Shown here piece by piece: positions 5,062-18,776 of a stretch of 41,259 bases of DNA. The translations under genes and the position numbers were made by a program. How positions within the stretch are numbered: position 1 is the first letter of the stretch; each line of letters begins with the position of its first letter. Source of the stretch: Verrucomicrobiota bacterium (lineage in GTDB: Bacteria; Verrucomicrobiota; Verrucomicrobiia; Opitutales; UBA953); NCBI GenBank assembly GCA_026397955.1, contig JAPLTV010000013.1:1-41259 (forward strand), written 5' to 3'. The notes beneath the pieces were generated by a model. The model was not told the DNA's origin, ran no database searches, and saw only the letters and a program-made list of their open reading frames with translations.

Positions 5062-5152
5062 GCGTTCGCCGCACGGTGAACGCAAAGGTAGGGGCGAGGC
5101 TACGCCGCGCCCTTTTGGGGCTAACAGGGCATGACGTAGTCCTGCCCCTACC
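5062..5152. repeat. Short inverted pair of GTAG-foot hairpins with leader hairpin (island A)
   Basis: A leader stem (5062-5070 with 5075-5083, GCGTTCGCC against GGTGAACGC, loop GCAC) is followed by an inverted pair of units. The left unit has GGTAG at 5087-5091 and a hairpin at 5092-5112 (GGGCGAGGC / TAC / GCCGCGCCC). The right unit, on the minus strand, has GGTAG at 5152-5148 and a hairpin at 5147-5127 (GGGCAGGAC / TAC / GTCATGCCC). The outer 9 bp GGTAGGGGC and GCCCCTACC are exact inverted repeats. The arms differ between the two units, yet each pairs 8 of 9. The same leader-plus-pair layout recurs at 18616-18699. Form resembles REP/SMAG elements; function unknown. Confidence 0.85.
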
Positions 5153-5183
5153 CTGCGGCCACCATCCGGCGGCCACGGGCTAA

Positions 5184-5309
5184 GGTAGGGGCGCGACGGC
5201 GTCGCGACCGTTCGCAAGGAGGCACATGCGATCTCAATGAGCCTGGCTAAGGGCCGACGACTTCCCGCCAGCGGGTTCGAACGGCGGTGATGGCAATCAC
5301 CGCCCTGCC
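5184..5309. repeat. Long (126 bp) composite GTAG-hairpin element, copy 1
   Basis: The left end is GGTAG (5184-5188) plus hairpin 5189-5209 (GGGCGCGAC / GGC / GTCGCGACC). The right end, read on the minus strand, is GGCAG (5309-5305) plus a perfect 9-bp hairpin at 5304-5283 (GGCGGTGAT / TGCC / ATCACCGCC). Between them are the blocks CCGTTCGC, ACATGCG and GCTAAGGGCCGA-C-GACTT. The element at 10610-10734 (125 bp) shares these blocks in the same order, and the two right-end hairpins are identical. Because the internal sequence is shared as well as the ends, this is a defined element and not just two nearby hairpins. Confidence 0.85.
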
Positions 5310-5321
5310 CGAGGCAGACGA

Positions 5322-5386
5322 GGACAGCACATGGTGCGGTCCCTACCCTCGATACAGCTATGTCGTGACGCGGTCCCGACCCTACC
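5322..5386 (-). repeat. Two tandem GTAG-foot hairpin units (island A)
   Basis: Read on the minus strand, two further units stand head-to-tail behind the long element. The first has GGTAG 5386-5382 and hairpin 5381-5361 (GGTCGGGAC / CGC / GTCACGACA; 7 of 9 pairs). The second has GGTAG 5347-5343 and hairpin 5342-5322 (GGACCGCAC / CAT / GTGCTGTCC; 8 of 9 pairs). The first foot begins 2 nt after the stop codon of the Gfo/Idh/MocA gene, so an mRNA of that gene would carry this hairpin immediately at its 3' end. The whole 331-bp gap 5058-5388 is filled by these repeats; I see no gene in it. Confidence 0.82.
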
Positions 5387-5388
5387 AA

Positions 5389-6411
5389 TTACTTTCCGGC
5401 GGCGACTTCGGCGCGGGCTTTGGCGAGGACGTCAGCGAGCTTCACTTCGGCGCCGCCCTGGCGTTTGCTCTCATCGGCGGCTTCCATGAAGGCGTAAAGT
5501 TCGAGGGTCTCTTCGGCGGAGACCTGCGGCTTGCCCGTGCGGAACATCTTCACGACGGATTCAAGCAGGACTTCGTAGCCGTCAAACTTGCCGATATCGG
5601 CTTCGCCTTTGTCGCCGACGGCTTTGCCGCCGTAGGGTCCGCCCTTGGCCTTACGATCCGCTTCGCGATAGATACCCACGCGGCCTTCGCCCCAGTTGCC
5701 CGTGACCTGGATCATACCCGCGGCGGACTTGTCGCGCTTCACCGAGAGGCAGCCCGTGCCCATGACGGTGTAAAGGCTTTCGCAACCGTGGACGCCATAC
5801 CAGTAGAGGTCAGGGTGATGCGGCTCGAGGCTGGCTGGGCTGGTGGTGTAAGCCGTCTTCACCTTACCGACAGAACCATTATGCACCGCTTGGGTGCCGG
5901 CCGCGAAGCGGAGGGACGAGGAGCAGAAATACACCACGCCGGCTTTCTTCGCGGCTTCCTGGATACGGATGACGTCGGCCAGCGAGCCGCCGATCGGCTT
6001 GTCGATAAAGACCGTCTTGCCGGCCTTCAGCACCGGCAGGATCTGCTCGAGGTGGACGCGGCCGTCGTTGGATTCCAGCATCACGAAGTCGACCTGCGCG
6101 CAGAGCTTCTCGATCGAATCGACGATTTCGACGCCCATGCCCTGGAGCTTGGCCGTGTAGTCGGGCACGTGGACGGTGCTTTCCGGGATGTCCTTGCTGC
6201 CTTGGGCGAAGGCGGCCGTCACGCGGAAGCCGGCGAACTTCGCGGCGTCGGCGGGGTTCTTCGGACCCTTGTTGAAGACCGTGGTGAACGCCACGACGTG
6301 CGACGTATCGAGGCCGATGATGCCAATCCTCTTCGGGGCTTCTTCGGCGAAGAGCGAGGAGACAAAGACGGACGCGACGGCGACCATGCGGGCAAGACTG
6401 GGGAGGGTCAT
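5389..6411 (-). CDS. Exported Gfo/Idh/MocA-family oxidoreductase
   Basis: The 340-residue protein begins with a probable Sec signal (hydrophobic 'MVAVASVFVSSLFA', cleavage near residue 22-24), followed by 'RIGIIGLDTSHV', the first strand and turn of the NAD(P)-binding fold in an atypical form with a DTSH loop. It continues with 'VDFVMLESNDGRVHLEQ' and the family hallmark 'FIDKPIGGS' (the E/D-K-P motif). Members oxidise or rearrange sugars and polyols, and exported versions are frequent in Verrucomicrobiota and Planctomycetota. The substrate cannot be read from the sequence. It is last in a minus-strand run after the LysE-type gene, with a 50-bp gap, and its 3' end abuts repeat island A. A second ATG at codon 9 is an alternative start. 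Confidence 0.85.
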   Translation of the reverse strand: MTLPSLARMVAVASVFVSSLFAEEAPKRIGIIGLDTSHVVAFTTVFNKGPKNPADAAKFAGFRVTAAFAQGSKDIPESTVHVPDYTAKLQGMGVEIVDSIEKLCAQVDFVMLESNDGRVHLEQILPVLKAGKTVFIDKPIGGSLADVIRIQEAAKKAGVVYFCSSSLRFAAGTQAVHNGSVGKVKTAYTTSPASLEPHHPDLYWYGVHGCESLYTVMGTGCLSVKRDKSAAGMIQVTGNWGEGRVGIYREADRKAKGGPYGGKAVGDKGEADIGKFDGYEVLLESVVKMFRTGKPQVSAEETLELYAFMEAADESKRQGGAEVKLADVLAKARAEVAAGK

Positions 6412-6461
6412 GCCTCTTTATAAATCGGCGACTGACAGCTTACAAGCACCCGGGGCGTCGG

Positions 6462-7094
6462 TTAATGCTGACCTTCGAGCAATTGCCAGACTCGCCAGGC
6501 CATTAGTACGCCCAGTGCCAGCCATAGTAGACCGAGCACGCGATCGACCCAACGGATGGTCGCCGCGTCCTTTAGTCGAACCCGGAGACGATCCCCGATG
6601 AAGGCGTAGAAACTCATCACGCCGATCTCCGATCCCAAAGTGCAGAGCAGGAACACGCCCGTCGTCAACCAAGCGAAGGCATCGGTGGGCACATTCGCCG
6701 CCTGGATGATGATGAGGAAGAACGGGATGGTCTTCGGGTTCGAGAAGTTCACCCACGTGCCGCGCAGGAAAAGTCCGAGCGCCCCACCCTCTAGCCCGGC
6801 GGATTCCGGCAAGCTCGAGCGCGGGTGCGTGAGATGGGTGAACGCGAGATAGAGGAAGTAAGCCAGCCCGGAGACGGCGATGGCAGTCATCGCATAAGGC
6901 ACATGCTGCGCGAGCCAGTGCGTACCGAAAAGCGCCAGGAACAGGTGCGGCGTCTCGCCGACCGCGAGGCCGAGCGTGTGCCAAAAGGCGCGACGCTGTC
7001 CGTAGCGGAGTGACGTCTCGATTGTCGACAGCGCCGCCGGCCCGGGCGAGAGGCTCGCGGTCAGGCAGGAGGCGATGAGCAGGCCGACGTTCAT
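6462..7094 (-). CDS. LysE/RhtB-family amino-acid exporter
   Basis: This is a 210-residue membrane protein with about six hydrophobic segments and the N-terminal family signature 'LTASLSPGPAALSTIETSLRYG' (residues about 11-32; the S-P-G-P motif is diagnostic). It also has 'GLAVGETPHLFLALFG', 'WVNFSNPKTIPFFL' (the conserved N-P-K motif) and a C-terminal 'WVDRVLGLLWLALGVLMAW'. LysE/RhtB proteins export amino acids such as lysine, arginine, threonine or homoserine lactones across the inner membrane. The start is 6 bp after the argH stop codon, so the two are almost certainly co-transcribed. That makes arginine or a related basic amino acid a reasonable guess for the cargo, but this is inference from position. 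Confidence 0.9.
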   Translation of the reverse strand: MNVGLLIASCLTASLSPGPAALSTIETSLRYGQRRAFWHTLGLAVGETPHLFLALFGTHWLAQHVPYAMTAIAVSGLAYFLYLAFTHLTHPRSSLPESAGLEGGALGLFLRGTWVNFSNPKTIPFFLIIIQAANVPTDAFAWLTTGVFLLCTLGSEIGVMSFYAFIGDRLRVRLKDAATIRWVDRVLGLLWLALGVLMAWRVWQLLEGQH

Positions 7095-7100
7095 CCGCGC

Positions 7101-8507
7101 TTAGCGGAGGGACTGCTTCCAGCGCGCGATCTCGCGGGCGACGGCCTTGGGGCCGGGCATGCCCGTGTTCTCGCGTGCGGCGAAGCCACGCTTGAGGCTG
7201 AAGACCTCGCGCCAGCCCTTCGTGAACGCCTGGTCAGCGGTCAACGCAGCGGCGTCGGAAAGTTTGTCGAGCGGCACACCGGACTTCTCGGCAAGCGCGA
7301 CGAGGCGGCCGACCGCATGGTGGGCGTGGCGGAATGGCATACCCTTGCGAACGAGCCAATCGGCGAGGTCGGTGGCGAGGAGCGCGGGATCGGAGGCAGC
7401 GGCGAGGCAGCGGGCCTGGTGGAACTTCGTGCCCGCAAGCGTGGCGTCGGCCACGGCGACGGACAGGATGAGCTGGTCGGCGGCGTCGAAGAGCGGCGGC
7501 TTGTCGTCCTGCAGGTCGCGATTATAGGTGAGCGGCAGGCCTTTCGTGAGCGTGAGCAGGTGCGTGAGCGAAGCCTGGAAGCGCGCGGCCTTGCCACGCA
7601 GCAGCTCCATCGAGTCAGGATTGCGCTTCTGCGGCATCAGCGAAGAACCCGTCGAGAATTCGTCGGGCATGCGCGCGAAGCCGAACTCCGCGGAGGACCA
7701 GAGGACCATGTCCTCGGCCAGGCGGGAGAGGTGGACGCCGCAGAGGGCGGCGGCGAAGCAGAACTCCGTGGCCGGATCGCGGTCGGCGACGGCGTCCATC
7801 GAATTACGGGTGACCTGCGGGCGGCCTTTCGCGTCGACGAAGCCGAGGAGCTTCGCCGTCACTTCGCGGCGGATCGGGAGGGTCGTGCCGGCGATGGCGC
7901 CAGAGCCCAGCGGGCACCAGTTAGCGGAAGCCTTGGCGGCGGCGAGACGGACGCGGTCGCGGCCGAACATCTCGGCGTAGGCGAGGAGATGGTGGGCGGC
8001 GGAGACCGGCTGGGCGCGCTGCAGGTGCGTGTAGCCAGGCAGGATCACATCGGCGTTGGCCTCGGCGAGCTTCACCAAAGTCTTGAGCAGCGAGACGAGG
8101 GCTTCATCGGCGGCGTCGCACTGGTCCTTGATCCACAGACGGACGTCGGTGGCGACCTGGTCGTTACGTGAGCGGGCCGTGTGCAGCTTGGCGGCGGCCG
8201 GGACGCGCTTCGTGAGCGCGCTTTCGATGTTCATGTGCACGTCCTCGAGGTCGCGGCTCCAGGTGAACTTGCCGGCGGCGATCTCCTTGGCGATGGCGTC
8301 GAGGCCGCGCAGGATCGCGTCACGCTCCTTCTTCGTCAGAATACCCGCCTGGGCGAGCATCGTGGCATGGGCCTTCGAGCCGCGGATATCCTGGGCCCAG
8401 AGACGATGGTCGAACGAGACCGACTCGCCGAAACGCAGCATCAATTCGGCAGGACCGGCGCTGAACCGGCCGCCCCAGGTGGCCTGGGCTTTCTTCCGTG
8501 CGGACAT
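7101..8507 (-). CDS. argH: Argininosuccinate lyase ArgH
   Basis: ArgH cleaves argininosuccinate to arginine and fumarate, the last step of arginine synthesis. The 468-residue protein begins '[19 protein letters not shown]', with the typical 'WGGRF'. It carries 'EDVHMNIE', '[12 protein letters not shown]', '[12 protein letters not shown]'-like sequence ('[13 protein letters not shown]'), and the flexible catalytic loop '[12 protein letters not shown]' at about 287-298. Length is typical (about 460). The frame is open 13 codons further upstream, but the ATG at 8507 begins the conserved sequence. The LysE-type exporter follows after 6 bp; the FtsB-like gene lies 45 bp upstream. Confidence 0.97.
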
Positions 8508-8552
8508 GACCAAGGAATGCCCCCGGAAAGGCGGGCAGGCAAGCAAGGATGC

Positions 8553-8927
8553 TCAGCGGCTGGCTTGAGCGGGAGCAACCGGAGCCGGTGCGGGCTTCTG
8601 CGGCGTCGCCATGTTGCGAGCGCCGTCGAGGCGGATCACGACCTCGCCGGGCTCGGCGACGCCCATGCGTTCGCGGGCCTGGTCACGGACGAATTCAGGG
8701 TCGCGGCCAAAACGTTCGACGTAGCGTTCGGTCTGGGCGCGCGTGCGTTCGAGGGCGGCGTAAGCCTGCTCCTTCTGATACTCGTTGGCGCGGATGCCGG
8801 CCAAGCGAGCGGTCTCGTCGCCATAGGTCGACCAGGTGAACGCAAGGACCGTGCAAAAGAGAATGAACGCGGCCCAGAGAAACAGCTTCTCCGTCTGAGG
8901 ATTCCGGGACGTGGGCTCGCTTTCCAT
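8553..8927 (-). CDS. FtsB/DivIC-like septum formation initiator protein
   Basis: The 124-residue protein has a short cytoplasmic N-terminus, one membrane span (about 15-33, 'LFLWAAFILFCTVLAFTW') and then a helical segment with coiled-coil character ('EYQKEQAYAALERTRAQTERYVERFGRDPEFVRDQARERMG'). It closes with 'MGVAEPGEVVIRLD', the family's typical 'R-x-x-x-G-x-x-x-P-G-E' tail, and a Pro/Ala-rich end. FtsB/DivIC proteins link FtsL and FtsQ/DivIB in the divisome and help activate septal peptidoglycan synthesis. The gene lies between a DUF420 gene and argH on the minus strand. The Pro/Ala-rich tail of about 20 residues looks like an unstructured extension. Confidence 0.82.
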   Translation of the reverse strand: MESEPTSRNPQTEKLFLWAAFILFCTVLAFTWSTYGDETARLAGIRANEYQKEQAYAALERTRAQTERYVERFGRDPEFVRDQARERMGVAEPGEVVIRLDGARNMATPQKPAPAPVAPAQASR

Positions 8928-8984
8928 GACGACCGCGCGAGTGAAAGCGGAAATCGAATACGGAGCGAGGGGAAAATCGCCGGC

Positions 8985-9473
8985 CTACTTCGTCGCCAGC
9001 TGAGCCGCGGCGGCGAGGGAGCCGCTGAACTCCATGAAGGCCCAGACGATGACGCCGGTGACCGAGACGTAGAGCCAGACGGGGAAGACCCAGCGGACGA
9101 GCTTCTTGTGCTCCTCGAGGCGATCGTGCTTGGCCAGCCAGACGGCGCGGACGATGAAGGGGGTGACCAGGATCGCCAGGATGACGTGCGGGATCAGGAT
9201 CAGGAGGTAGAGAGACTTGAGACCGACCCAAGCCGAGTTCGGCTCAGGCGCATAAGTGATGTTGGTGCGACCTAAAGCGACCCAGAGGTGGACCTTCGAG
9301 GCCAGGTAGAGCGCCAGGAACAGGGCTGAGGTCAGTACGGCCGCGCCCATCGCCTTGCCGTGGCCGGCGCGGTCGCCCGCCTTGATTTTGGCGAAGCCAA
9401 TCAGGAGGAAGACCGTGGCCAGGGCGTTCATGCCGGCGACGGAGCGGGAAAGGAGTTCGGTGGTAGAGGCCAT
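8985..9473 (-). CDS. DUF420 integral membrane protein
   Basis: This 162-residue protein has four hydrophobic segments: 'GMNALATVFLLIGFAKI', 'AAVLTSALFLALYLASKVH', 'LYLLILIPHVILAILVTPFIV' and 'WVFPVWLYVSVTGVIVWAFM'. It carries spaced histidines (in 'DRAGHGKAM', 'SKVHLWV', 'IPHVILA', 'LEEHKKLVRW') in the pattern of DUF420 (YozB/CtaM-related) proteins. Members are often found near cytochrome oxidase genes and have been linked to heme-copper oxidase maturation; no oxidase gene is visible here. The ATG at 9473 begins the recognisable protein; the open frame six codons further upstream is less likely. It is divergent from the YHYH gene. Confidence 0.82.
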   Translation of the reverse strand: MASTTELLSRSVAGMNALATVFLLIGFAKIKAGDRAGHGKAMGAAVLTSALFLALYLASKVHLWVALGRTNITYAPEPNSAWVGLKSLYLLILIPHVILAILVTPFIVRAVWLAKHDRLEEHKKLVRWVFPVWLYVSVTGVIVWAFMEFSGSLAAAAQLATK

Positions 9474-9548
9474 GGGGCCAAGGAGAACCACTTTTAAGGA
9501 AAAGCCAACCTCAGGCCGCCCTTAACCTTCACTTAAGGCTAAATCTGG

Positions 9549-9554
9549 TATCAT
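9549..9554 (+). promoter_or_regulatory. Possible -10 element (TATCAT) for the YHYH gene
   Basis: TATCAT matches the sigma-70 -10 consensus in five of six positions and lies 14 nt before the YHYH start codon. No convincing -35 box is visible at 16-18 nt spacing. If it is used, the 5' leader would be only a few nucleotides of pyrimidine-rich sequence. Confidence 0.35.
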
Positions 9555-9568
9555 TCCCCCCACGCCCC

Positions 9569-10597
9569 ATGAACCCGACCCTCTGCCTTCTCCTCACCGC
9601 CGCCGCGCTGGTCGCCGCCGACGCCCCTAAGGGCCCTGCCCTCAAGGAAGCCGACGCCAAGCCGCCCGGCCAGAACAAGGTCACCTTCACCGTCAAGGGC
9701 GACAAGCGCGTCATCGAGTCCAATGGGATCCCCGACCACAAGGTCGCGACCTTCCCTAACCGCGGCAACCCCAACGCCATCTCGGAGCAGAAGTATCGCC
9801 TCGAAGTTCCGGCCAACCCTCAGCCGCTCACCGGCGGCGCGACCGGCCGGATGATGTCGGCCTGGGGCGTCGCCCTGAACGGCGTCGTCTTTGATCCGGG
9901 CACTGCCGAAGTCTACAATGACGGCGATCGCAGCAACCCGTGGCACTACGAGGCACTGATGAGCAACACCGAGATGGGCACGACCCCGAAGATCAAGGTC
10001 GGTCTGGGCCTCGACCAGAATCACGGGCACGTCCAACCCAACGGCGCCTACCACTATCACGGCATCCCCTCCCTGCTCTTCGAACGCCTCTCCGGCGGAG
10101 AAAAGAAGATGACCCAGGTCGGCTGGGCCGCGGACGGCTTCCCGGTCTATGCCGTCTACGCCTTCGCCAAATCCGAGGATCCCAAGAGCGAGCTGAAGAA
10201 GATGAAGAGCAGCTATCGCCTCAAGACCGCCGACCGCGGGGGCGACGGCAAGGAGACCCCGACCGGCAAGCCCGACGGCGCGTTCGGCCTCGACTTCGAA
10301 TACGTCGCCGGCTCGGGCGACCTCGACGAGTTCGGTGGTCGCGCCGGCGTGACCCCGGAATTCCCGAAGGGCACCTACTACTACGTGATGACCGAGGAAT
10401 ACCCGTTCATCCCCCGTAAGTTCAAGGGCACGCCTGACCCCTCTTTCAGCAAACAGAAGATGGATCCCCACTCCAACCTCGGCGGCCAGGGCGGCCCCGG
10501 CGCCAAGGGCGGTAAGAAGGGCAAGAAGGGCCCGCCTCCTGGCGGCTCGGGCGCCCCTCCCCAGGACGGCCCGCCTCCCGAAGGCGCGGCGAAATAA
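9569..10597 (+). CDS. Secreted YHYH-domain protein
   Basis: The 342-residue protein starts with a short Sec signal (about 1-18, 'LCLLLTAAALVAADA'). The family motif Y161-H162-Y163-H164 occurs in 'NGAYHYHGIP', preceded by 'LGLDQNHGHVQPN' and followed by 'VGWAADGFPVYAVYAF'. The C-terminal domain contains 'GDLDEFGGRAGVTPEFPKGTYYYVMTEEYPF', characteristic of YHYH proteins. The last 45 or so residues are a low-complexity Gly/Pro/Lys tail ('GGKKGKKGPPPGG'), probably disordered. The clustered His and Tyr suggest metal binding, but YHYH proteins have no established reaction that I can name. It is divergent from the DUF420 gene, and its 3' end is followed 12 bp later by repeat island B. The start has no Shine-Dalgarno sequence. 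Confidence 0.88.
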   Translation: MNPTLCLLLTAAALVAADAPKGPALKEADAKPPGQNKVTFTVKGDKRVIESNGIPDHKVATFPNRGNPNAISEQKYRLEVPANPQPLTGGATGRMMSAWGVALNGVVFDPGTAEVYNDGDRSNPWHYEALMSNTEMGTTPKIKVGLGLDQNHGHVQPNGAYHYHGIPSLLFERLSGGEKKMTQVGWAADGFPVYAVYAFAKSEDPKSELKKMKSSYRLKTADRGGDGKETPTGKPDGAFGLDFEYVAGSGDLDEFGGRAGVTPEFPKGTYYYVMTEEYPFIPRKFKGTPDPSFSKQKMDPHSNLGGQGGPGAKGGKKGKKGPPPGGSGAPPQDGPPPEGAAK

Positions 10598-10609
10598 TCC
10601 GGCTTTCAA

Positions 10610-10734
10610 GGTAGGGACGTGGTTGCCATCACGTCCGTTCGCGGGCGGACATGCGGGGTCAGTGCCCTTAGCTAAGGGCCGATGACTTGCCGACCACGGA
10701 CTCAAACGGCGGTGATGGCAATCACCGCCCTACC
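10610..10734. repeat. Long (125 bp) composite GTAG-hairpin element, copy 2
   Basis: The left end is GGTAG (10610-10614) plus hairpin 10615-10636 (GGACGTGG / TTGCCA / TCACGTCC). The right end on the minus strand is GGTAG (10734-10730) plus a perfect hairpin at 10729-10708, the same 22 nt as in the 5184-5309 copy. The interior shares CCGTTCGC, GGACATGCG and GCTAAGGGCCGA-T-GACTT with that copy, and includes the 14-bp palindrome CCCTTAGCTAAGGG. The left hairpins of the two copies have unrelated stems. The element begins 12 bp after the YHYH stop codon. Confidence 0.85.
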
Positions 10735-10763
10735 CCACTTCGCGACCTAACTGCCTCTGCCTT

Positions 10764-10827
10764 GGTTAGGGCGCGGCTCTCCGAGCCAGCCGCCATCAGA
10801 CGGACGGCTCGGAGAGCCGTCCCTACC
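10764..10827. repeat. Short (64 bp) inverted pair of GTAG-foot hairpins (island B)
   Basis: The left unit has GGTTAG (10764-10769, a one-base variant foot) and hairpin 10770-10791 (GGCGCGGCTC / TCC / GAGCCAGCC). The right unit on the minus strand has GGTAG 10827-10823 and hairpin 10822-10802 (GGACGGCTC / TCC / GAGCCGTCC, 9 of 9 pairs). The two inner stems share GGCTC/GAGCC, so the pair could also fold as one longer cruciform. It lies 17 bp beyond the stop codon of the PDZ gene. The 247-bp gap 10598-10844 otherwise holds nothing recognisable. Confidence 0.82.
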
Positions 10828-10844
10828 TGAGGCGGCGAGAAGAC

Positions 10845-11786
10845 TTACGCGCCCTGCTTGGGGTCGTATTTCTTCTTCGGCTCTTCGGTGGGAGCCGGCG
10901 TCGCGTTGCCTGGAAAGCCCGGCAGGGTGAAGTTCTTGCCCTCGACGAGCTTCAGGCGGCGACGGACGTCGGCCGGCAATTTCTCGACCGCAGACTTATC
11001 GGTGACATCGCCGTCGAAGAGCGTCTTGCCGTCGCGATCTTTCACGACGGCGTGCTTCTTGCCGTCCTTCTCCTCGAGCGAGACCGTGCCCTCGGCATCC
11101 GAAGCCATCGAGGTAGAGGAAGATTTCGCGCCATTACCGAAGCTGAACGAGAACGAATGCGAAGAAGACGAACGGGCGCCGGACTGCGCGCGAAGCTCAT
11201 CCGCCGAAGGATTCGGCGCACGGGCGGGCGTCGGGATTGCGCCAGACTGGAGATCCTGCAACTGCTTGAGCAATTCAGGCGGGATCGCGCCGCCCGGCGT
11301 AATCGTAATACCATTGGGCGTCTCGATGACGCCGGCACGACCGGCGCGAGCACCGGAGCGGTCGGCGGAAGCCAGCTTCTCCGCCGGCCTGGAGCCGAGC
11401 GCGAAATCGACGATCATCGGCTCGACGCCACGGACGAGAGTGAGCTTCACCTTTTCGCCCGGTTTACGCGTGCGCACGAGCGCGCGGAACTGCTCAGCGT
11501 TGAACAGCATCTGGTCGTCGAGGCGCGTGAGGATATCGCCTTCCTCGACCTTACCCGCGGACGGGCCCTTCGGATCGATGAAGCCAACTTGGATGCCAAC
11601 GCCCGCGGGCACCGTGGTGTTGGCCGTTTCGATGCGCGGTCCGACGTTAAGGCCGGCATAGGCGACCTCGCCGGAAGCGGCGAGCTTGGCGGCGGGGGTC
11701 TCGTTATCCTTGTCCTTGGCCTGCATCGGACAGACGAGTCCGGCGAGCAGGAGCATGTGGAGCGGAATCTGGCGGAGGGAGTTCAT
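10845..11786 (-). CDS. Secreted PDZ-domain protein of the ECF sigma operon
   Basis: The 313-residue protein has a Sec signal (about 1-23, 'LHMLLLAGLVCPMQA') and a single PDZ domain at about 50-130, seen as 'GVGIQVGFIDPKGPSAGKVEEGDILTRLDDQMLFNAEQFRALVRTRKPGEKVKLTLVR'. After it comes a long, Ser- and Pro-rich, probably flexible region and a short folded-looking end ('DKSAVEKLPADVRRRLKLVEGKNFTLPGFPG'). There is no protease domain. It follows the anti-sigma candidate by 44 bp and has its own AAAGGA 6 nt before the ATG, the only strong Shine-Dalgarno I noticed among the starts I compared; that decides the start. PDZ domains bind exposed C-termini, so a periplasmic sensor or adaptor role for the sigma system is possible, but unproven. 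Confidence 0.8.
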   Translation of the reverse strand: MNSLRQIPLHMLLLAGLVCPMQAKDKDNETPAAKLAASGEVAYAGLNVGPRIETANTTVPAGVGIQVGFIDPKGPSAGKVEEGDILTRLDDQMLFNAEQFRALVRTRKPGEKVKLTLVRGVEPMIVDFALGSRPAEKLASADRSGARAGRAGVIETPNGITITPGGAIPPELLKQLQDLQSGAIPTPARAPNPSADELRAQSGARSSSSHSFSFSFGNGAKSSSTSMASDAEGTVSLEEKDGKKHAVVKDRDGKTLFDGDVTDKSAVEKLPADVRRRLKLVEGKNFTLPGFPGNATPAPTEEPKKKYDPKQGA

Positions 11787-11830
11787 GGCGGGTCCTTTGT
11801 AAGTTAAGCGACGGAGGTCGGCGGATTTGT

Positions 11831-12250
11831 TCAATTGGTCTCGAGCGGCAGCAGCGTGAGCTGGTCGTTCGGGCGATAGTTGATCAGGCGGGTGTTGCTG
11901 CGAGCATCTTCCCAGCGGGTCGTGTCCTGCCAGCGCACGCGCACCGGGCGGGCGAATGATCCGTCGTCCATCTGGACCGGGCGAAAGAACTGCACGTCTG
12001 GGCGGGACTGCTCGACGCGCACGAGCTGATACTGCGGGGCCTCGGATTCGACGACGCCACCGAGGAAGATGAAGGCGGCGACGAGAGCGGCCGCGGCCGA
12101 CGCGAGACCAGCGGACCAGGCGATAATGAGGCCGCGACGAGACGACGCAGCGTCGAGTTCGCGGGCGAGGCGCTCCGTCACGGCGGGGCTGGGCGGGCGC
12201 GGGCGAAGCGAAGCTAGGGCCTCGGCGATATCGTGGTCGGGATCAGTCAT
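11831..12250 (-). CDS. Single-span membrane protein, candidate anti-sigma factor
   Basis: A 139-residue protein with a cytoplasmic N-terminus of about 40 residues (helical, 'DHDIAEALASLRPRPPSPAVTERLARELDAA'), one membrane span (about 42-64, 'LIIAWSAGLASAAAALVAAFIFLGG') and a periplasmic domain of about 75 residues. The ATG lies inside the end of the ECF sigma gene (overlap of 8 nt, ATGACTGA), which is typical for sigma/anti-sigma pairs. There is no zinc-binding H-x3-C-x2-C motif, and sequence alone does not place it in a named anti-sigma family; the call rests on topology and gene order. The frame extends 31 codons further upstream, but only the internal ATG gives sensible topology. Confidence 0.7.
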   Translation of the reverse strand: MTDPDHDIAEALASLRPRPPSPAVTERLARELDAASSRRGLIIAWSAGLASAAAALVAAFIFLGGVVESEAPQYQLVRVEQSRPDVQFFRPVQMDDGSFARPVRVRWQDTTRWEDARSNTRLINYRPNDQLTLLPLETN

Positions 12251-12746
12251 GGGTGCGGGCGGTGATGTGTTTGCGCAGGGCCTCCATGGCGTAGCGCCAC
12301 CGCGAGGCCGCGGTGTTGGGGGAAATCGAAAGTTGTTCGCCAATCTCGTCGAAGGTCAGTTCACCCCACACCTTGAGCACGACGACCTCGCGTTGCTCGG
12401 TGGGCAGGAGCTTCAACGAATCGACTAGGGCAGCCAGCCGCGGATCGGCTTCGGGCTCAAACCAGCTCACCGTCTCCATGTCGTCGCCGACGACCTTCTC
12501 GCGGGCCGCGCGCCGGTCGCCGCGACGCAGGAGATCAAGGGCGGCGCGGCGGAGGGAGGTCACCACGAGGGCGTTCGGGTTACCGGGCAGGTGACGTTGA
12601 TGTTTCCAAAAGCGAACAAATGCCTCCTGCAAGACGTCGTCCGCATCGGCCTCACACCGGGTCCACTGACGCGCGATCAGCCGGAGCCTGGCGCCGTGTT
12701 CGGCGAACCAGGCCCGCCAATCCTGATCGGCATGGGCATCGGGCAT
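12243..12746 (-). CDS. ECF-type RNA polymerase sigma factor
   Basis: The 167-residue protein has the two-domain ECF layout. Region 2 is at about 15-80 ('ARLRLIARQWTRCEADADDVLQEAFVRFWKHQ', with the D-x-L-Q-E-x-F motif) and region 4 at about 105-160 ('LPTEQREVVVLKVWGELTFDEIGEQLSISPNTAASRWRYAMEALRKH', a clear helix-turn-helix). There is no region 1 or 3, as expected for this group. It redirects RNA polymerase to a small regulon and is usually held inactive by a co-encoded anti-sigma factor, here the overlapping downstream gene. It is transcribed away from the desaturase operon across a 118-bp shared region containing a dyad. Confidence 0.93.
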   Translation of the reverse strand: MPDAHADQDWRAWFAEHGARLRLIARQWTRCEADADDVLQEAFVRFWKHQRHLPGNPNALVVTSLRRAALDLLRRGDRRAAREKVVGDDMETVSWFEPEADPRLAALVDSLKLLPTEQREVVVLKVWGELTFDEIGEQLSISPNTAASRWRYAMEALRKHITARTHD

Positions 12747-12774
12747 CTTGTAATAGAGGGCGTCGCGGGCGGGC

Positions 12775-12798
12775 GGATTTGTCTACCCGGGACAATCC
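12775..12798. promoter_or_regulatory. Dyad in the sigma factor/desaturase intergenic region
   Basis: GGATTTGTC and GACAATCC form an inverted repeat of 8 pairs with one bulged base around a TACCCGG spacer. It sits in the 118-bp space between two divergent operons, 29 bp upstream of the sigma factor start and 67 bp upstream of the desaturase start. It could be an operator or promoter element acting on both sides. No motif match to a known regulator is claimed. Confidence 0.4.
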
Positions 12799-12864
12799 TG
12801 GCGGGCGGGGCAAAAGCGTCAAAGCAGTTGCGAAACGCCCCCTCCCCTTCTAACTGCAAACCAG

Positions 12865-13845
12865 ATGCCCACCCCCCTTGCCCAGCGCCCCGAGGACGGA
12901 TTCTTCCGATCCCTGATCCGCTGGTTCGATGCGGACCACATCCCGGAAGGGGTCGAGGCCCTCCAAAGCTCCCCCAAGAAGGTGGATTGGCTCCGTTCCA
13001 TCCCCTTCATCCTCCTCCACTTGGTCTGCTTCGCCGTCATCTGGGTCGGGGTCAGCCCGATCGCCGTCTGGACCGCTGTCGGCCTCTACTTCTTCCGGAT
13101 GTTCGCGATCACCGGCTTCCTCCACCGCTACTTCTCGCACAAGACCTACTCCACCTCGCGCGCCTTCCAGTTCGTGATGGCCGTCTGGGCCGCCTTGGCC
13201 GTCCAGCGCGGCGCGCTCTGGTGGGCCTGCACGCACCGCCACCACCACAAGCATTCCGACGAAGAAGAGGACAAGCACTCCCCGGTCGTCGACGGTTTCT
13301 GGTGGTCGCACATCGGCTGGATCACCGCCAAGCGGAATTTCCCGACCGATTACTCGAAGATTCCCGATCTCGCGAAATACCCCGAGCTGGTCTTCCTTAA
13401 CCGCTTTGACATCCTCATCCCACTGCTCGCGGGCGGCCTGACCTACGGCGCCGGCGCCTGGCTCGGCGCGCATGGCTACGACACCAACGGCCCCCAGCTC
13501 CTCGTCTGGGGGATCATCTCGACCGTCGTGCTCTTCCACGGCACCGGCTGCATCAACTCCCTCGCCCACGTCTTCGGCACCAAGCGCTTCCAGACCACCG
13601 GTGACGAGTCCCGCAATTCGCTGATCCTCACGCTCATCACCCTCGGTGAAGGCTGGCACAACAACCACCACCGCTATCAGGCCACGACGAAGCAGGGCTT
13701 CTACTGGTGGGAGTTCGATCCGACCTATTACGGCCTCAAGGTTATGTCATGGATGGGATTGATCTGGGGCCTCAAGGGCGTGCCGGCTTCGGTCTACGAG
13801 GAGGCGGAACGCACCAAGGCGGAGGCCTCCTCTTCGCGTGCGTGA
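12865..13845 (+). CDS. Membrane fatty-acid (acyl-CoA-type) desaturase
   Basis: The 326-residue integral membrane di-iron desaturase has all three histidine boxes: H87-R-Y-F-S-H92, H124-R-H-H-H128 and H265-N-N-H-H269. About four membrane spans flank them ('FILLHLVCFAVIWVGV', 'VGLYFFRMFAITGF', 'ILIPLLAGGLTYGAGAWL', 'LLVWGIISTVVLF'). The pattern matches the delta-9 stearoyl-CoA desaturase-like family. Such enzymes insert a cis double bond into acyl chains, which would give the substrate for the methyltransferase encoded downstream. It overlaps the FAD oxidoreductase gene by 8 nt. It lies divergent from the ECF sigma operon, so it may belong to that regulon. The start has no Shine-Dalgarno. Confidence 0.93.
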   Translation: MPTPLAQRPEDGFFRSLIRWFDADHIPEGVEALQSSPKKVDWLRSIPFILLHLVCFAVIWVGVSPIAVWTAVGLYFFRMFAITGFLHRYFSHKTYSTSRAFQFVMAVWAALAVQRGALWWACTHRHHHKHSDEEEDKHSPVVDGFWWSHIGWITAKRNFPTDYSKIPDLAKYPELVFLNRFDILIPLLAGGLTYGAGAWLGAHGYDTNGPQLLVWGIISTVVLFHGTGCINSLAHVFGTKRFQTTGDESRNSLILTLITLGEGWHNNHHRYQATTKQGFYWWEFDPTYYGLKVMSWMGLIWGLKGVPASVYEEAERTKAEASSSRA

Positions 13846-15115
13846 ACGCATCGCCATCGTCGGCTCGGGCGTGAGCGGCCTCGGTTGCCTTCGCTTCCTG
13901 CGTGCGCATCACGACGTCACCGTCTTCGACCACGATACCCGCCCCGGCGGCCACGCGCACACCATCGACGTCACCGAACCCGGCACCGGGCGGGCGCTGC
14001 CGATGGACACCGGCTTCATGGTCTTCAACGAGGTGACGTACCCGCACCTCTGCCGGCTCTTCAAGGAACTCGGCGTGAAGCCCAAGCAGACCTCGATGTC
14101 CTTCGCGGTCCGCCACGACCCGACCGGGCTGGAATGGTGCGGTAGCTCGCTTAATCACCTCTTCGCCCAACGCCGTAACCTCTTCAACCTGCGCTTCTGG
14201 AAGCTGCTGCTCCAGATCAATAAATTCAACAAGGTCGCCAAGACTGAGTGGCGATCCACCGAGGCCGAGACGACCTCGCTCCGCGATTGGTGCGCCCGCA
14301 AGGGTTTTGGCCAAGACTTCCTCGACCTCTACCTGATTCCCATGTCGGCCGCGGTCTGGTCGACGCCGGCGGACAAGATGCTTGGCTTCCCGGCCGCGGC
14401 GCTGATGCGCTTCTTCCATAACCATGGCTTCCTCGGCCTCGACACCCAGCACCAGTGGCTCACGCTCGAGGGCGGTTCACGGACTTACGTCAACGCGTTG
14501 CTCAAGGCGCACCCGGCCGATTTTCGTTTTGGTCAAGGCGTCACCTCCGTCCGCCGCGACGGCCAGCAGGTCATCGTGACGACGGCCAACGGAGAGGAAC
14601 GCTTCGATCGCGTGATCATGGCCTCGCATGCCGATACCACACTGAAGCTGTTGTCCGATGCCGACGCCGAGGAGCGCCGCCTGCTCGGCGCCTTCACCTA
14701 TAATCAGAACGTCGCCATCGTGCATACCGACACGGGGCCGCTCCCTCGCTCCGCGAAGGCGCGCTCCTCTTGGAACTACCGCACCTGGGCCAAGGACGGC
14801 GGCCTCGCGACCTCGACGCACTACTGGATGAATTCGCTGCAGGGCCTCACGGACAAAGGCGACTTCGTTGTCACGATCAACCACCCCGAACAGGTCGACC
14901 CCGTGAAGGTCCTCCGCACCATCCCGACCGAGCACCCGCTCTTCTCGCTCGAGGCCGTCGCGGCGCAGGCCGAGATCCCCACCCTCAACGCCCGGACCGG
15001 CGCACGCACGCACTTCGTCGGCGCGTGGCAACGCTACGGTTTCCACGAAGACGGCTTCTGGTCGGCCCACCGGCTCTGCTCGCAACTCCTCGGGCGCGAC
15101 GCTTGGACGGCCTGA
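13838..15115 (+). CDS. NAD/FAD-binding oxidoreductase of the cyclopropane-lipid cluster (COG2907 type)
   Basis: The 425-residue flavoprotein begins with a GTG codon inside the end of the desaturase gene (8-nt overlap). The dinucleotide-binding fold is at the N-terminus ('IAIVGSGVSGLG', residues about 5-16), followed by 'TVFDHDTRPGGHAHTIDV', the FAD-contact G-G-H motif. Proteins of this amine-oxidase-like group typically sit next to a DUF1365 gene and a cyclopropane-fatty-acid-synthase-like gene, exactly as here. In Rhodobacter, related genes in a comparable cluster take part in furan fatty acid formation; whether this protein does the same is inference. No signal peptide, so probably cytoplasmic, at the membrane face. 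Its stop codon shares a TGATCA hexamer with the stop of the next, opposite-strand gene. Confidence 0.88.
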   Translation: MRERIAIVGSGVSGLGCLRFLRAHHDVTVFDHDTRPGGHAHTIDVTEPGTGRALPMDTGFMVFNEVTYPHLCRLFKELGVKPKQTSMSFAVRHDPTGLEWCGSSLNHLFAQRRNLFNLRFWKLLLQINKFNKVAKTEWRSTEAETTSLRDWCARKGFGQDFLDLYLIPMSAAVWSTPADKMLGFPAAALMRFFHNHGFLGLDTQHQWLTLEGGSRTYVNALLKAHPADFRFGQGVTSVRRDGQQVIVTTANGEERFDRVIMASHADTTLKLLSDADAEERRLLGAFTYNQNVAIVHTDTGPLPRSAKARSSWNYRTWAKDGGLATSTHYWMNSLQGLTDKGDFVVTINHPEQVDPVKVLRTIPTEHPLFSLEAVAAQAEIPTLNARTGARTHFVGAWQRYGFHEDGFWSAHRLCSQLLGRDAWTA

Positions 15116-16405
15116 TCAGAAGGCGATCTTCTGGGTCTGACGTTCAAAGCCTTCGGCCTGGAAAAGAGGCTCCGGATTCATCTTCACGATATCAGCCACA
15201 TAACGATCCGGTACGCGCTCAAGGCGGATGTTATAGAACGTCGCAATATTCGCATGGTAGGCGCGGGCGAGCGCGATGCGATCCTCGGTCTCGACAAGGT
15301 TCTTACTGAGTTCAGCGAAGACCTGCTGCCCCTTGAGCTCCGGATACTGTTCGGCCACCGCAACCAGCATCGGCCCCACGGCGGAAGGCCTGGCCCCGGC
15401 CGCCTGCGCGCGGAGCGCAGCGACCAGCGTCTGCACCGACGCCTCGTGGGCGCGGAAACCCTGCACGCACCCGACCAGCGGAGGAATCAGATCGGCCCGA
15501 CGCTTCAGCTGGATATCAATCAATGAAGACGCCTGCCGGACGCGATTGCGCAGGCCGGTGATGCTGTTGAAGACCATCCAGACCCAGCCAGCGCCGGCCG
15601 CGAATAGGTAGAGGCCGAGGCCAATAAATAACCCGATCGGCGCGACGTCGGGACGGGCCCCGGCCATAAGGGCAGCGCCGAAGCCAGCGGCGCAGGCGGC
15701 CCCGACGACATGCCAAAGGACGAAGGCGGTAGCTTTCCCTTCGCTGACCTCATGCGCCTTGCGCGTCGTGATAATGAACATATCCGCCTTGTCCTCGTGC
15801 TTGATCTGGGCGGCGACGATGTCGGGGCGCTCGCTCGCGCGACCGCGGACGAAGAGCGGCGTGCCGATGACGAGACCGTACTCGGTGAAGCTGCGTTCGC
15901 CGGTCGAACCTTCGACGGCATCGTCGGGACCCTTGTCGTAGTAAAGCGGGTCGTCGCGATCGACGTCGCGCTCGAACATCGTGAGCGTGTCCATGTCGGC
16001 GCCCTCGGGGTTGACCCAGACGTAGCCGGTGTCGTCCTGGATATAGAAGCCGCCCGACTCGCCGCCGGAGGCGACGGTATCCGATCCCGTATCGATCACC
16101 GTGCGGGTCCTCGTGTTACCCTTATCATCGGTATAGGTCTCTTGCCGGGCGCGGCGCCAATGTTCGTCCACTGACCAGCGGTAGACGACGCAGGGCTTCT
16201 CGGCCAGGTAGCTGATAAACGGGTCGCGGCGGACGCAGACGCCCTCGACCTCGACCTCCCCGACGAAGACGCCCAGCGCCTTCGAGATCGGGGTGTCGTC
16301 GAGCAGGCGACGCTTACGGCCGGCGTTCAACGCAAGGAGCATGCACCCGCCGGAGGCAAGGAGAGCGATCAGACCGGCTCCGGAGGCATCTTGGGACACG
16401 GTCAT
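15116..16405 (-). CDS. GIDE-LemA fusion membrane protein
   Basis: The 429-residue protein joins two known modules. After an N-terminal membrane span (about 9-28), residues about 35-225 resemble the GIDE/MULAN domain ('GVFVGEVEVEGVC', 'CVVYRWSVDEHWRR', 'GGFYIQDDTGYVWVNPEGADMD', 'EYGLVIGTPLFVRGRA'). Two spans follow at about 236-285. The rest is a LemA domain ('LRNRVRQASSLIDIQLKRRADLIPPLVGCVQGF', 'ETEDRIALARAYHANIATFYN'). LemA proteins are membrane-anchored helical bundles of unclear role; GIDE takes its name from mitochondrial ubiquitin ligases, but no RING finger is present here. It is coded against the surrounding lipid genes. Start set at the internal ATG at 16405; an 18-codon upstream extension is possible. 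Confidence 0.85.
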   Translation of the reverse strand: MTVSQDASGAGLIALLASGGCMLLALNAGRKRRLLDDTPISKALGVFVGEVEVEGVCVRRDPFISYLAEKPCVVYRWSVDEHWRRARQETYTDDKGNTRTRTVIDTGSDTVASGGESGGFYIQDDTGYVWVNPEGADMDTLTMFERDVDRDDPLYYDKGPDDAVEGSTGERSFTEYGLVIGTPLFVRGRASERPDIVAAQIKHEDKADMFIITTRKAHEVSEGKATAFVLWHVVGAACAAGFGAALMAGARPDVAPIGLFIGLGLYLFAAGAGWVWMVFNSITGLRNRVRQASSLIDIQLKRRADLIPPLVGCVQGFRAHEASVQTLVAALRAQAAGARPSAVGPMLVAVAEQYPELKGQQVFAELSKNLVETEDRIALARAYHANIATFYNIRLERVPDRYVADIVKMNPEPLFQAEGFERQTQKIAF

Positions 16406-16489
16406 CGTTATGCCCAGGCCGGACGGTTTAGCAAGGTTTCGGCGAGGGGACGCTTGCACCTGACCCTGTTCCTTTCACCCTGCGGACAG

Positions 16490-17341
16490 ATGCCCCGACT
16501 GTACGATGCGGAAGTGATGCACGCCCGGCTCCGGCCGAAGCGTCATGACTTCACGCATGCAGCCTTCGCCGTGGCCGTGGACGCCGCGACCCTCGGGTCC
16601 GTGCGCGGCGGCCGATTCATGCTGGGTCGGCGATACTCGCCGTACTGTTTTCGCGACCAGGATTTCCTGCCGGCCGCGGAACTCTTCCAGCCGGAAGGCG
16701 TGGCGCAGAATTTTGGCCAAGCGGGCGATTCGCTAGACAGGCGCTTCCGAGCCTTCGTCGCCGCCCAAGGCGAACCCCTGCCGGCCCACGCCCAGATTAC
16801 CTTAGTCGCGATGCCCCGCGCCTTCGGAAAATCCTACAACCCCGCCGTCTTCATGATGGCGACCGTGGATGGCGAGCTCACCTGCGGCGTCGCCGAGGTC
16901 CATAATACCTTCGGCGAACGCAAGGCATGGTTCTTGGGTAAGGCGTGCCTAAAGCGAGATCATGATGGCGACACGTTCCTACAGCTCCGCACCCCGAAAC
17001 GTTTCTACGTCTCCCCTTTCTCGAAACTCGATACTGAATTCGAATTCACCCTGCGCCTACCGGACGGCCGGCTGGCATTGACGGTCGATCACTACGAAGA
17101 CGGCGACCGGTCTCTGACTAGCGCCTGGACGGGCAGGCTGGTGCCGCTGACGGACCTCCGCCTGCTCTGGCTGACCCTCAAGTCGCCCTTGCTGATCCTC
17201 AAGGTCATCACGCTGATCCATCTACACGCCGCCTGGCTTTGGCTGGTGAAGAAACTTCCCTTCCGCCGAAAAGGGGCTGACATTCCCGACCAACGCAACC
17301 TGCGGCACCCTACCCCTGAACTTACTGGACGACATGACTAA
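16490..17341 (+). CDS. DUF1365 protein of the lipid-modification cluster
   Basis: The 283-residue protein matches the DUF1365 (COG3496) pattern: 'LYDAEVMHARLRPKRHDFTHAAF' at the start (the conserved R-H-x-F after a short strand), 'RRYSPYCFRDQDF', 'VTLVAMPRAFGKSYNPAVFM'-like sequence ('ITLVAMPRAFGKSYNPAVF', a conserved S-Y-N-P-V block), 'EVHNTFGERKAWFL' and 'FYVSPFSKLDTEFEF'. Family members nearly always neighbour COG2907 and cyclopropane-synthase-like genes, but their reaction is not established. It overlaps the methyltransferase start by 8 nt, so the two are translationally coupled. The frame is open 33 codons upstream of the chosen ATG, but that part reads as non-conserved and runs over the GIDE-LemA leader. 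Confidence 0.9.
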   Translation: MPRLYDAEVMHARLRPKRHDFTHAAFAVAVDAATLGSVRGGRFMLGRRYSPYCFRDQDFLPAAELFQPEGVAQNFGQAGDSLDRRFRAFVAAQGEPLPAHAQITLVAMPRAFGKSYNPAVFMMATVDGELTCGVAEVHNTFGERKAWFLGKACLKRDHDGDTFLQLRTPKRFYVSPFSKLDTEFEFTLRLPDGRLALTVDHYEDGDRSLTSAWTGRLVPLTDLRLLWLTLKSPLLILKVITLIHLHAAWLWLVKKLPFRRKGADIPDQRNLRHPTPELTGRHD

Positions 17342-18545
17342 GCCTTCCCTCGCCCGCCGCCTCGTCCTGGGAGAACTTGCGAAGCTCTCCAAAGGCCGCC
17401 TTTCATTGCGCCTGCCCGAAGGCACGGAGCTCATCCTCGGCGACCCGCAGGCCAAGTCCGGAGCGCGCATCGAGATCGCGGACGAGAATGCCTTCCGCCG
17501 CATCATGCTCGCGGCCGACATCGGCCTCACCGAGGGCTACATGGAAGGCGAATGGGATTCTCCCGACCTCAACGCCCTCATCGGCTTCTTCATCGAGAAC
17601 ATCGACCAGACCCCTGGCATGTCCGGCTCGGCCCGCAAGGCCCTCGGAGTCGGCCTCTTCCGCATCGCCGACCGCATCGGCCACCTCCTGCGTCCGAACG
17701 ACAAGAAGACCGTCCGACGTAATATCTCGGAGCACTACGACGTCTCCAACGATTTCTTCCGCCTCTTCCTGGATCCGTCGATGATGTATTCGTCGGCGCG
17801 CTGGGAAGGCACGGACTCGCTCGAACAGGCGCAGACGAATAAGAATGACGCCCTCTGCCGATTCCTGCAGCTCAAGCCGACCGACCATGTCATCGAGATT
17901 GGCACCGGCTGGGGTGGCTGGGCGCTACATGCCGTCAAGAAGTACGGCTGCCGCGTGACCTCTCTCACGATCTCAAAGGCGCAGCACGACCTCGCCGTCG
18001 AGCGCATCCAAGCCGCCGGCCTCTCCGATCGCATCACCGTGAAGCTCGAGGACTTCCGCGACCATCAAGGCCTGTATGACAAGTGCGTCTCCATCGAGAT
18101 GATGGAAGCCCTTGGACACAACTACCTGTCCGCCTTCTGCGCCTCCATCGGCCGCCTGCTGAAGCCCGATGGCATCGCCGCGTTCCAATACATCACCTGC
18201 CCGGACAGCCGCTACGCGCAGTTCCGTGACGGCGTGGACTTCATCCAGAAGCACATCTTCCCCGGATCGCTCCTGCTCTCGATCAACCGCGTCGGCGACC
18301 TCATGACCAGCGAGAGCGGCTTCCAGCTCGACCGCGTCGAGGAGTTCGGCCGTGACTACGCGCGCACGCTCGATGCGTGGTGCCAGGCCTTCGAAGCCAA
18401 CCTCGGCAAGGTGCGCGGCATGGGCTTCGACGAGCGCTTCATCCGCAAGTGGCGCCTCTACTTCCGCTACTGCCAGGCCGCGTTCGAGCACCGCAACATC
18501 GGCGTCGTCCAGGCCGTGTACGTCCGCCCGAACAGGAAGGGGTAA
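17334..18545 (+). CDS. Cyclopropane-fatty-acid-synthase-family methyltransferase
   Basis: The 403-residue SAM-dependent methyltransferase is of the Cfa/CmaA type. Residues 1-130 are the N-terminal lipid-facing part, then 'RRNISEHYDVSNDFFRLFLDPSMMYSSARW', the family's hallmark entry to the catalytic domain. The SAM loop 'VIEIGTGWGGWALHA' is at 186-200, and later come 'LTISKAQHDLAVERI', 'SIEMMEALGHNY' and 'CPDSRYAQFRDGVDFIQKHIFPGS'. Such enzymes add a methylene or methyl group from SAM to the cis double bond of phospholipid acyl chains. With the linked desaturase, FAD enzyme and DUF1365 protein, the product could be a cyclopropane, branched or furan fatty acid; sequence does not decide. Its 3' end is followed by repeat island C. 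Confidence 0.92.
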   Translation: MTKPSLARRLVLGELAKLSKGRLSLRLPEGTELILGDPQAKSGARIEIADENAFRRIMLAADIGLTEGYMEGEWDSPDLNALIGFFIENIDQTPGMSGSARKALGVGLFRIADRIGHLLRPNDKKTVRRNISEHYDVSNDFFRLFLDPSMMYSSARWEGTDSLEQAQTNKNDALCRFLQLKPTDHVIEIGTGWGGWALHAVKKYGCRVTSLTISKAQHDLAVERIQAAGLSDRITVKLEDFRDHQGLYDKCVSIEMMEALGHNYLSAFCASIGRLLKPDGIAAFQYITCPDSRYAQFRDGVDFIQKHIFPGSLLLSINRVGDLMTSESGFQLDRVEEFGRDYARTLDAWCQAFEANLGKVRGMGFDERFIRKWRLYFRYCQAAFEHRNIGVVQAVYVRPNRKG

Positions 18546-18615
18546 CGCGACGCTTCGCGAGGGGACACGTGGGTAAGTTGACACGTGGACAAGGGGAAGT
18601 GACGGTGTCGCGTCC

Positions 18616-18699
18616 GTTCGCCGCAGGGCGAACCATGGTAGGGGCACGATTCATCGTGCACTCCGCAACAGGAGGGCGCGGCGAAGCCACGCCCCTACC
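18616..18699. repeat. Short inverted pair of GTAG-foot hairpins with leader hairpin (island C)
   Basis: The leader stem is 18616-18622 with 18627-18633 (GTTCGCC / GCAG / GGCGAAC). It precedes a left unit with GGTAG 18637-18641 and a hairpin within 18642-18662 (core GCACGA / TTCA / TCGTGC). The right unit on the minus strand has GGTAG 18699-18695 and hairpin 18694-18674 (GGGCGTGGC / TTC / GCCGCGCCC, one G-T pair). The leader and its spacing match the element at 5062-5152; a G-C pair here replaces a G-T pair there. Just upstream, at 18565-18588, ACACGTGG occurs twice, 16 bp apart; meaning unknown. Confidence 0.83.
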
Positions 18700-18713
18700 C
18701 CAGGCCGCCCTAC

Positions 18714-18776
18714 GGCGGCCCGAGGAGGTCGGCCCTACCCGAGAGACCTAGGACAGCACGTGGTGCTGTCCCTACC
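18714..18776 (-). repeat. Two tandem GTAG-foot hairpin units (island C)
   Basis: Read on the minus strand, the unit nearest proS has GGTAG 18776-18772 and a perfect hairpin 18771-18751 (GGACAGCAC / CAC / GTGCTGTCC). Behind it is a degenerate unit, GGTAG 18739-18735 with hairpin 18734-18714 (about 6 of 9 pairs). The first closely resembles the unit at 5322-5347, including the spacer that leads into a TCGGGYAGGG of the next unit. It begins 4 nt after the proS stop codon. The 235-bp gap 18546-18780 holds no gene. Confidence 0.8.

Follow-up and report, generated by a model that had tools for sequence, protein, structure and literature searches.

Repetitive extragenic palindromic (REP) elements are widespread genomic parasites of bacteria. 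In Opitutus terrae, a member of the Verrucomicrobiota, GTAG repeats are highly enriched, with several coexisting families and dimers, according to the sections of Di Nocera et al. (2013; PMC3733652) used here, which also distinguish 24 GTAG families, with sub-families in which the stem has alternative residues that complement each other, with both homo- and heterodimers and with repeat-specific REPtrons, and which call the preference for heterodimers unexplained. A study of three pairs of REPs and REP-associated tyrosine transposases (RAYTs), with TnpA-REP of Stenotrophomonas maltophilia (group 3) and Marinomonas, found that cutting depends on loop bases and on GTAG; certain changes in the lower stem were accepted or even beneficial, whereas a mismatch in the stem did harm (PMC8266576). 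Coevolution of RAYTs and REPs was described by Nunvar et al. (2010; PMC2817692), abundant REPs without their RAYT, for which RAYT loss was proposed, by Nunvar et al. (2013; PMC3686654), and Bertels and Rainey (PMC3116915) proposed the two-hairpin form as the one recognised by RAYTs; all of these papers are cited here from part of their text. We describe here 14 hairpins in a stretch of 41,259 nt from a Verrucomicrobiota bacterium (the whole stretch, contig C27, hereafter the window; the genome has 2.45 Mb in 126 contigs and is 93.6 % complete). We read them, with a probability of about 0.9, as GTAG-type REP elements, mostly REPINs, i.e. units of two inverted REPs, spread by RAYTs, with coexisting systems that share one foot. 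The kind is already known, the O. terrae repeats of 2013 (PMC3733652) contradicting an earlier note on this DNA that knew of no such family in Verrucomicrobiota, and the present case is an unusually rich and diverse example of it.

All 14 hairpins of that earlier note were found again by reading the sequence and by a script scan. Twelve carry the exact foot GGTAGG, on the forward strand at 5087, 5184, 10610 and 18637 and on the reverse strand at 5152, 5347, 5386, 10734, 10827, 18699, 18739 and 18776, and two carry odd feet, i.e. GGCAG at 5309 (reverse) and GGTTAG at 10764 (forward). The 9-nt arms described earlier hold for nearly all copies, whereas the uniform 3-nt loop does not, as loops range from 2 to 4 nt. 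Among the exact-foot copies, nine of nine Watson–Crick pairs are formed in three, eight in seven, seven in one and six in one (18739); copy 5309 pairs at all nine positions, and the stem of copy 10764 contains indels, as judged by eye. The copies lie in three islands, all in gaps between convergent genes (stop codons at 5057/5389, 10597/10845 and 18545/18781).

With a G+C content of 0.639 in a 409-kb sample of the genome (the window plus 20 stretches, some chosen for holding RAYTs), short stems are common, and the hairpins could in principle be GC-rich inverted repeats arisen by chance in a genome of 64 % GC. The controls refute this, leaving it a negligible probability. In the sample, at least eight of nine pairs in the fixed register are formed at 58 of 242 GGTAGG sites, compared with 0 of 414 sites at which GGTAG is followed by A, C or T, and 19 permuted feet gave 0–2 paired sites each, except for the register-shifted GTAGG (24). 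Genome-wide, the foot-to-foot pattern GGTAGGGN{9,60}CCCTACC matched 71 times and its reversed control 0 times; at least two of the matches listed look like low-complexity sequence rather than a hairpin. The covariance-model search that the earlier note had proposed (model R1, built from 45 ends and in part from three window copies) gave at least 164 matches in the genome at E≤0.1; scoring covered 150 of the 2109 candidates of the first look. On the window, with filters off, 14 of 14 copies were recovered at E≤1 and 12 at E≤0.024, the odd-foot copies reaching 0.26 and 0.6 only; four extra matches (E 0.25–0.5) comprised the opposite strand of three copies and low-complexity sequence at 22638. 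A short low-complexity stretch of GGTAGGGGCAGGGATAGGGGTAGGGGTAG there (22620–22650) resembles the foot but lacks a good hairpin.

Pairing is also conserved across the genus. From 122 distinct ends of genus loci, picked by their feet alone with pairing ignored, 102 pair at eight or more of nine positions, compared with 5.1 % for re-dealt 3′ halves and 0.25 % for shuffles; with eight to nine Watson–Crick pairs in these 102 of 122 ends, the conserved mid-stem mismatch bulge of E. coli-type REPs is absent. The covariation score of 45 aligned ends with a 3-nt loop was 0.762 compared with 0.200 in shuffles, none of 500 being as high, and slid registers reached at most 0.148; the shuffle tests are inflated by sequence kinship, whereas slid registers preserve relatedness. 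Two further measures on these ends separate poorly from shuffles, i.e. pairs changed on both sides (7 of 9, matched by 370 of 500) and pair types (24, matched by 32 of 500). The earlier claim that the pairing is kept while the sequence changes is borne out.

The copies have the features of GTAG-type REPs: GTAG (GTRG) stands directly 5′ of a palindrome of 20–40 nt, and the copies are many and extragenic, 51 of 58 sampled REPs lying in gaps between called genes, one being genic and six lying at stretch edges. As in REPINs, two inverted REPs form one unit. The 58 upstream flanks show no single target-site motif, CT being commonest at −4/−3 (13 of 58) and a C standing directly before the foot in 1 of 58. 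Within the genus, the pattern occurs in 33 of 37 genomes, with 7–81 copies where present and 0–3 for the control. The exact form GGTAGGG...CCCTACC is mainly genus-level: beyond the genus it was found in 3 of 20 order-level genomes (1, 3 and 5 matches), and the one with three matches had seven for the control.

RAYT genes were searched for with PF01797 and then with a profile, A1, built from nine REP-flanked proteins. At E≤1e-3, A1 had matches in 35 of the 55 genomes of the genus, in part owing to a second Y1_Tnp group; at E<1e-20, it matched 54 places in 28 genomes, and the 49 places examined hold 48 distinct RAYTs. Each of the 48 has one or more hairpins following GGYAG within 500 bp (seven or more of nine pairs, G–T allowed), or 39 of 39 as the independent count, since the nine seeds had been picked for their REP flanks. 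The best flanking hairpin has nine pairs in 40 cases, eight in six and seven in two; hairpins flank 44 of the 48 genes on both sides, 19 of them with inverted doublets on both sides. Both the assignment to the REP/RAYT kind and the Y1 HUH gene between GGTAG hairpins that the earlier note had suggested looking for are thus supported, in this genome and across the genus. The window's genome contains three open RAYT genes, i.e. L001 (loop GCC), L003 (loop TGCC) and L098 (loop TAC), as well as a broken one, L099 (G000:C107:12136-12572), split over two frames with TGC-type REPs still downstream, which is likely a case of RAYT loss in progress. The 20 genomes of the genus that hold a RAYT have more REPINs than the 17 that lack one (p 0.0025, rho 0.61).

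The association extends to named genomes. In the best 80 of 438 RAYT loci, nearly all from Verrucomicrobiota, Lentisphaerae or Kiritimatiellae and some of them from genus members, GTAG with a paired 8–9 bp hairpin was found within 300 bp in 63, control feet giving 0–3 apart from the register-shifted GGTA (47) and TAGG (43). Among the more distant 40 of these 80 loci, 31 had the hairpin, and four control feet gave 0–2.

The hairpins could also be ends of ordinary IS200/IS605-type transposons, or of their miniature inverted-repeat derivatives, moved by an IS200-type TnpA. The Y1_Tnp domain is common to RAYTs, seven of nine seeds match NCBIfam transpos_IS200 and the profile matches IS200-type structures weakly, but the fit to the RAYT model is much closer (best E 2e-24 vs 7e-5 for the IS200 model). 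All nine seeds match Pfam Y1_Tnp and NCBIfam REP_Tyr_transpos NF047646 at E≤1e-3 (seed member 1 lying slightly below the curated NF047646 cut-off, 77.8 vs 80), the profile matches the TnpArep structure PDB 4er8 (E 1e-16) and the motifs PDHxH, WQ and FDHR are invariant, which identifies the proteins as Y1 HUH enzymes of the RAYT family. An NCBIfam hydrolase model matched two of nine seeds weakly, an unrelated hit taken as spurious. Moreover, GTAG directly precedes the palindrome, 71 doublet matches stand against four RAYT genes in this genome and, by eye, no paired GTAG hairpin lies beside the second Y1_Tnp group. An IS200-type origin is therefore very improbable. This second group in the genus (L002, L046-L050, L052, L057-L059, L063 and L065) consists of proteins with an xNHFH motif, many of them about 300 aa long.

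To relate hairpins to transposases, each RAYT was labelled with the loop of its nearest upstream REP, or of the downstream one if there was none. On the RAYT tree, the 15 loop states required 16 changes, compared with a mean of 35.6 and a minimum of 31 in 1000 label shuffles; labelling the broken L099 by the downstream REP, which is nearer to it, lowers the number to 15. REP type thus follows RAYT phylogeny, and each loop belongs to one RAYT clade, with few exceptions. Since loops track RAYT clades, many RAYT–REPIN systems share one foot, so that of the two alternatives in the earlier note, i.e. many subfamilies on one foot or a stem free to change, our data favour the first.

Named after their loops accordingly, seven such systems account for 13 of the 14 copies in the window. 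For two families, an open RAYT is present in the same genome: TAC (GGGCGAGGC.TAC.GCCGCGCCC; L098), with a left end at 5087–5112 (forward) and a right end at 5127–5152 (reverse) of a 66-bp REPIN, and TGCC (L003), with a left end at 10610–10636 (forward) and a right end at 10708–10734 (reverse) of a 125-bp REPIN, as well as the copy at 5283–5309 (reverse) with foot GGCAG, the weak covariance match at E 0.26. The RAYTs of the other five are found in sister genomes, with stem-loops identical to those of the window for CAC (L066), CGC (L111/L116), TCC (L093) and TC/TTC (L112) and near-identical for GGC (L085). The GGC REP at 5184–5209 (forward) is the left end of a 126-bp inverted doublet with the TGCC REP at 5309, a composite of two different families. 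The same end pair occurs at the orthologous site of a second genome (L200), and a comparable TGC/TGCC composite lies in L031 (12787–12910). CAC and CGC REPs occur in the window as singlets on the reverse strand, i.e. CAC at 5322–5347 (loop here CAT) and 18751–18776 (GGACAGCAC.CAC.GTGCTGTCC), and CGC at 5361–5386 (GGTCGGGAC.CGC.GTCACGACA), with the stop codon of the following gene 2 bp away. The TCC REP at 10802–10827 (reverse; GGACGGCTC.TCC.GAGCCGTCC) appears by eye to form a decayed doublet with a degenerate copy at 10764–10791 (forward; foot GGTTAG), assigned by eye as the left end and matching weakly (E 0.6). The TC REP at 18637–18661 (forward) and the REP with loop TTC at 18674–18699 (reverse) are the left and right ends of a 63-bp REPIN. 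The remaining copy, at 18703–18739 (reverse), is degenerate, with an exact GGTAG foot at 18739, six of nine pairs and E 0.024, and is left unassigned to a family.

Several observations weigh against reading the hairpins as REPINs spread by loop-specific RAYTs. No REP movement was observed, five of the seven window families are without a RAYT in this assembly (93.6 % complete) and 8 of the 17 RAYT-less genus genomes keep at least 25 pattern matches. Among the best 80 of 438 RAYT loci, 17 were without a GTAG hairpin within 300 bp, and 23 without a hairpin under another criterion. The label shuffles on the tree ignore relatedness, and the two ends of a REPIN differ by more than one change in their loops in 10 of 89 cases. 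Finally, two separate RAYT clades have the loop TGC, and CGC is found next to two types of stem; therefore, the loop is not the whole address.

With genes called by a purpose-written script, convergent gaps contain a REP in 11 of 44 cases and other gaps in 10 of 306 (p 5e-6), in keeping with a spread of REPs by RAYTs to gene ends. The position of the REPs also raises another explanation, namely that they are RNA or DNA structures at gene ends selected by the host, such as bidirectional terminators or mRNA stabilisers, with a secondary link to RAYTs. The density of REPs, 6.0 per kb between convergent genes and 0.75–0.97 in the remaining gaps, would fit such a role, as would the placing of the three window islands, each of them between convergent genes. 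However, REP families and numbers vary widely at one orthologous gap. The gene to the right of island 1 (5389–6411) has a high-identity match at 23 loci, its own genome counted, and in the 13 genomes with both flanking genes the gap holds 0–10 REPs of differing families, at least one in 12 of 13; in genome G016, a RAYT gene with TGC REPINs lies inside the gap. Considering also that loop families follow RAYT clades and that Rfam contained no family at gathering score in the window, host selection as the primary explanation is very unlikely, though a secondary host role for the REPs may exist. In orthologues of window 5058–5388 (L198, L201, L202, L204, L206, L212 and L218), REP feet lie 0–2 bp from the flanking stop codon, as if REP insertion favoured the very end of genes.

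The two ends of a REPIN are alike in their loops and unlike in their stems. In 89 REPINs from genus loci with eight to nine pairs at both ends, the loops are identical in 51 and the same or one change apart in 79, while the stems differ in 88, by a single position in 17, most commonly at positions 3, 4, 6 and 7. Across 48 distinct stem/loop combinations, which group in few families and are not 48 independent events, position 7 shows a transversion, i.e. a flipped pair, in 23, a transition in two and agreement in 23, and the two ends agree at position 8 in 39 and at position 9 in 36. The flipped pair may mark the ends of a REPIN. It is tempting to speculate, though we doubt it more than we believe it, that REPINs carry a two-part code, in which loop and stem top would be the RAYT-clade address on both ends and the middle of the stem a left/right mark. 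For 47 short REPINs, minimum-energy folding with DNA energies gave two hairpins in 27, one long hairpin in 16 and a mixed form in four, while a homodimer control, in which one end was replaced by the inverse of the other, gave the long form in 47 of 47. Because the stems of the two ends are unequal, the two-hairpin form is probably competitive with the long hairpin.

Some families carry an additional outer hairpin of 7 bp with a 4-nt loop, 0–4 nt (mostly 3) outside the foot, found in 31 of 41 TAC and TC/TTC-type REPs compared with about three in shuffled sequence (G–T allowed). In the window, these are GGCCGCC.GGAT.GGTGGCC at 5157–5174 (reverse), 4 nt beyond the foot (GGTAG) of the TAC REP, GTTCGCC.GCAG.GGCGAAC at 18616–18633 (forward), 3 nt before the foot of REP 18637, and GGCCGCC.GTAG.GGCGGCC at 18703–18720 (reverse), overlapped by the degenerate copy with foot at 18739. 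Their stems are compensated, and left and right versions differ. The count depends on the scan: 1 of 16 TAC REPs with perfect pairs without G–T, and 18 of 23 TAC/TACG REPs with the fixed 7+4 form and G–T allowed. The RAYT clades of the two outer-hairpin families are not sisters on the tree, and with 33 of 320 in other families compared with 18 in shuffles, the outer hairpin is not general.

What was observed directly is how the hairpins are built, that their pairing is conserved, that loops are linked to RAYT clades and that the REPs at one orthologous site differ. By analogy with the published biochemistry of relatives, REPINs would be moved by RAYTs as follows. The RAYT, a small single-strand endonuclease of the HUH/Y1 type encoded amid its own REPs, would bind a folded single strand, read the GTAG guide and the loop, and tolerate lower-stem changes as long as pairing persists. 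It would then cut and rejoin, so that REPs reach the ends of genes, in greatest density where two genes converge. Several such systems, with one foot and different loops, coexist in the genus, and a lost RAYT would leave its REPs behind as orphans, which would be why a window of 41 kb shows seven REP families. A constant foot, a free but paired stem and a clade-specific loop are the pattern predicted by the published cutting data for TnpA-REP.

Linking 15 classes of loop to RAYT clades at a shared foot and stem length, this one genus amounts to a natural mutagenesis series, and its diversity of loops and stems lets the loop-reading residues of RAYTs be predicted. The genus may also suggest why heterodimers are preferred.

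The REPs of E. coli bacterial interspersed mosaic elements (BIMEs) are named Y and Z. Like the REPINs described here, BIMEs with their TnpA-REP (4er8) are dimers of two unlike REPs with a homologous RAYT; in E. coli, however, the stem has a bulge and the partner loops are of unequal length, whereas stems here are mostly perfect or have one mismatch. The O. terrae families GTAG-17, -19 and -20 (PMC3733652), from the same phylum, share the GTAG-type foot, short palindromes and coexisting families, a likeness by description; they form head-to-head and tail-to-tail dimers, and the sections of that account cited here contain no link between loops and RAYT clades, unlike the present data. Literature matches listed, all open-access papers, included nothing on RAYTs of Opitutae, a weak negative. 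The S. maltophilia REP (PMC8266576, in part) also has GTAG, with a short, perfect palindrome of 8 bp around a 3-nt loop, and is cut via foot and loop, whereas the REPs here have 9 bp, loops of 2–4 nt, a GG stem base and doublets with two stems. Finally, the REPINs of Pseudomonas fluorescens SBW25, according to the part of PMC3116915 cited, are likewise inverted REP doublets in a genome with RAYTs, but there the prediction is a single long hairpin made by both ends, whereas here the stems differ and 27 of 47 short REPINs fold as two.

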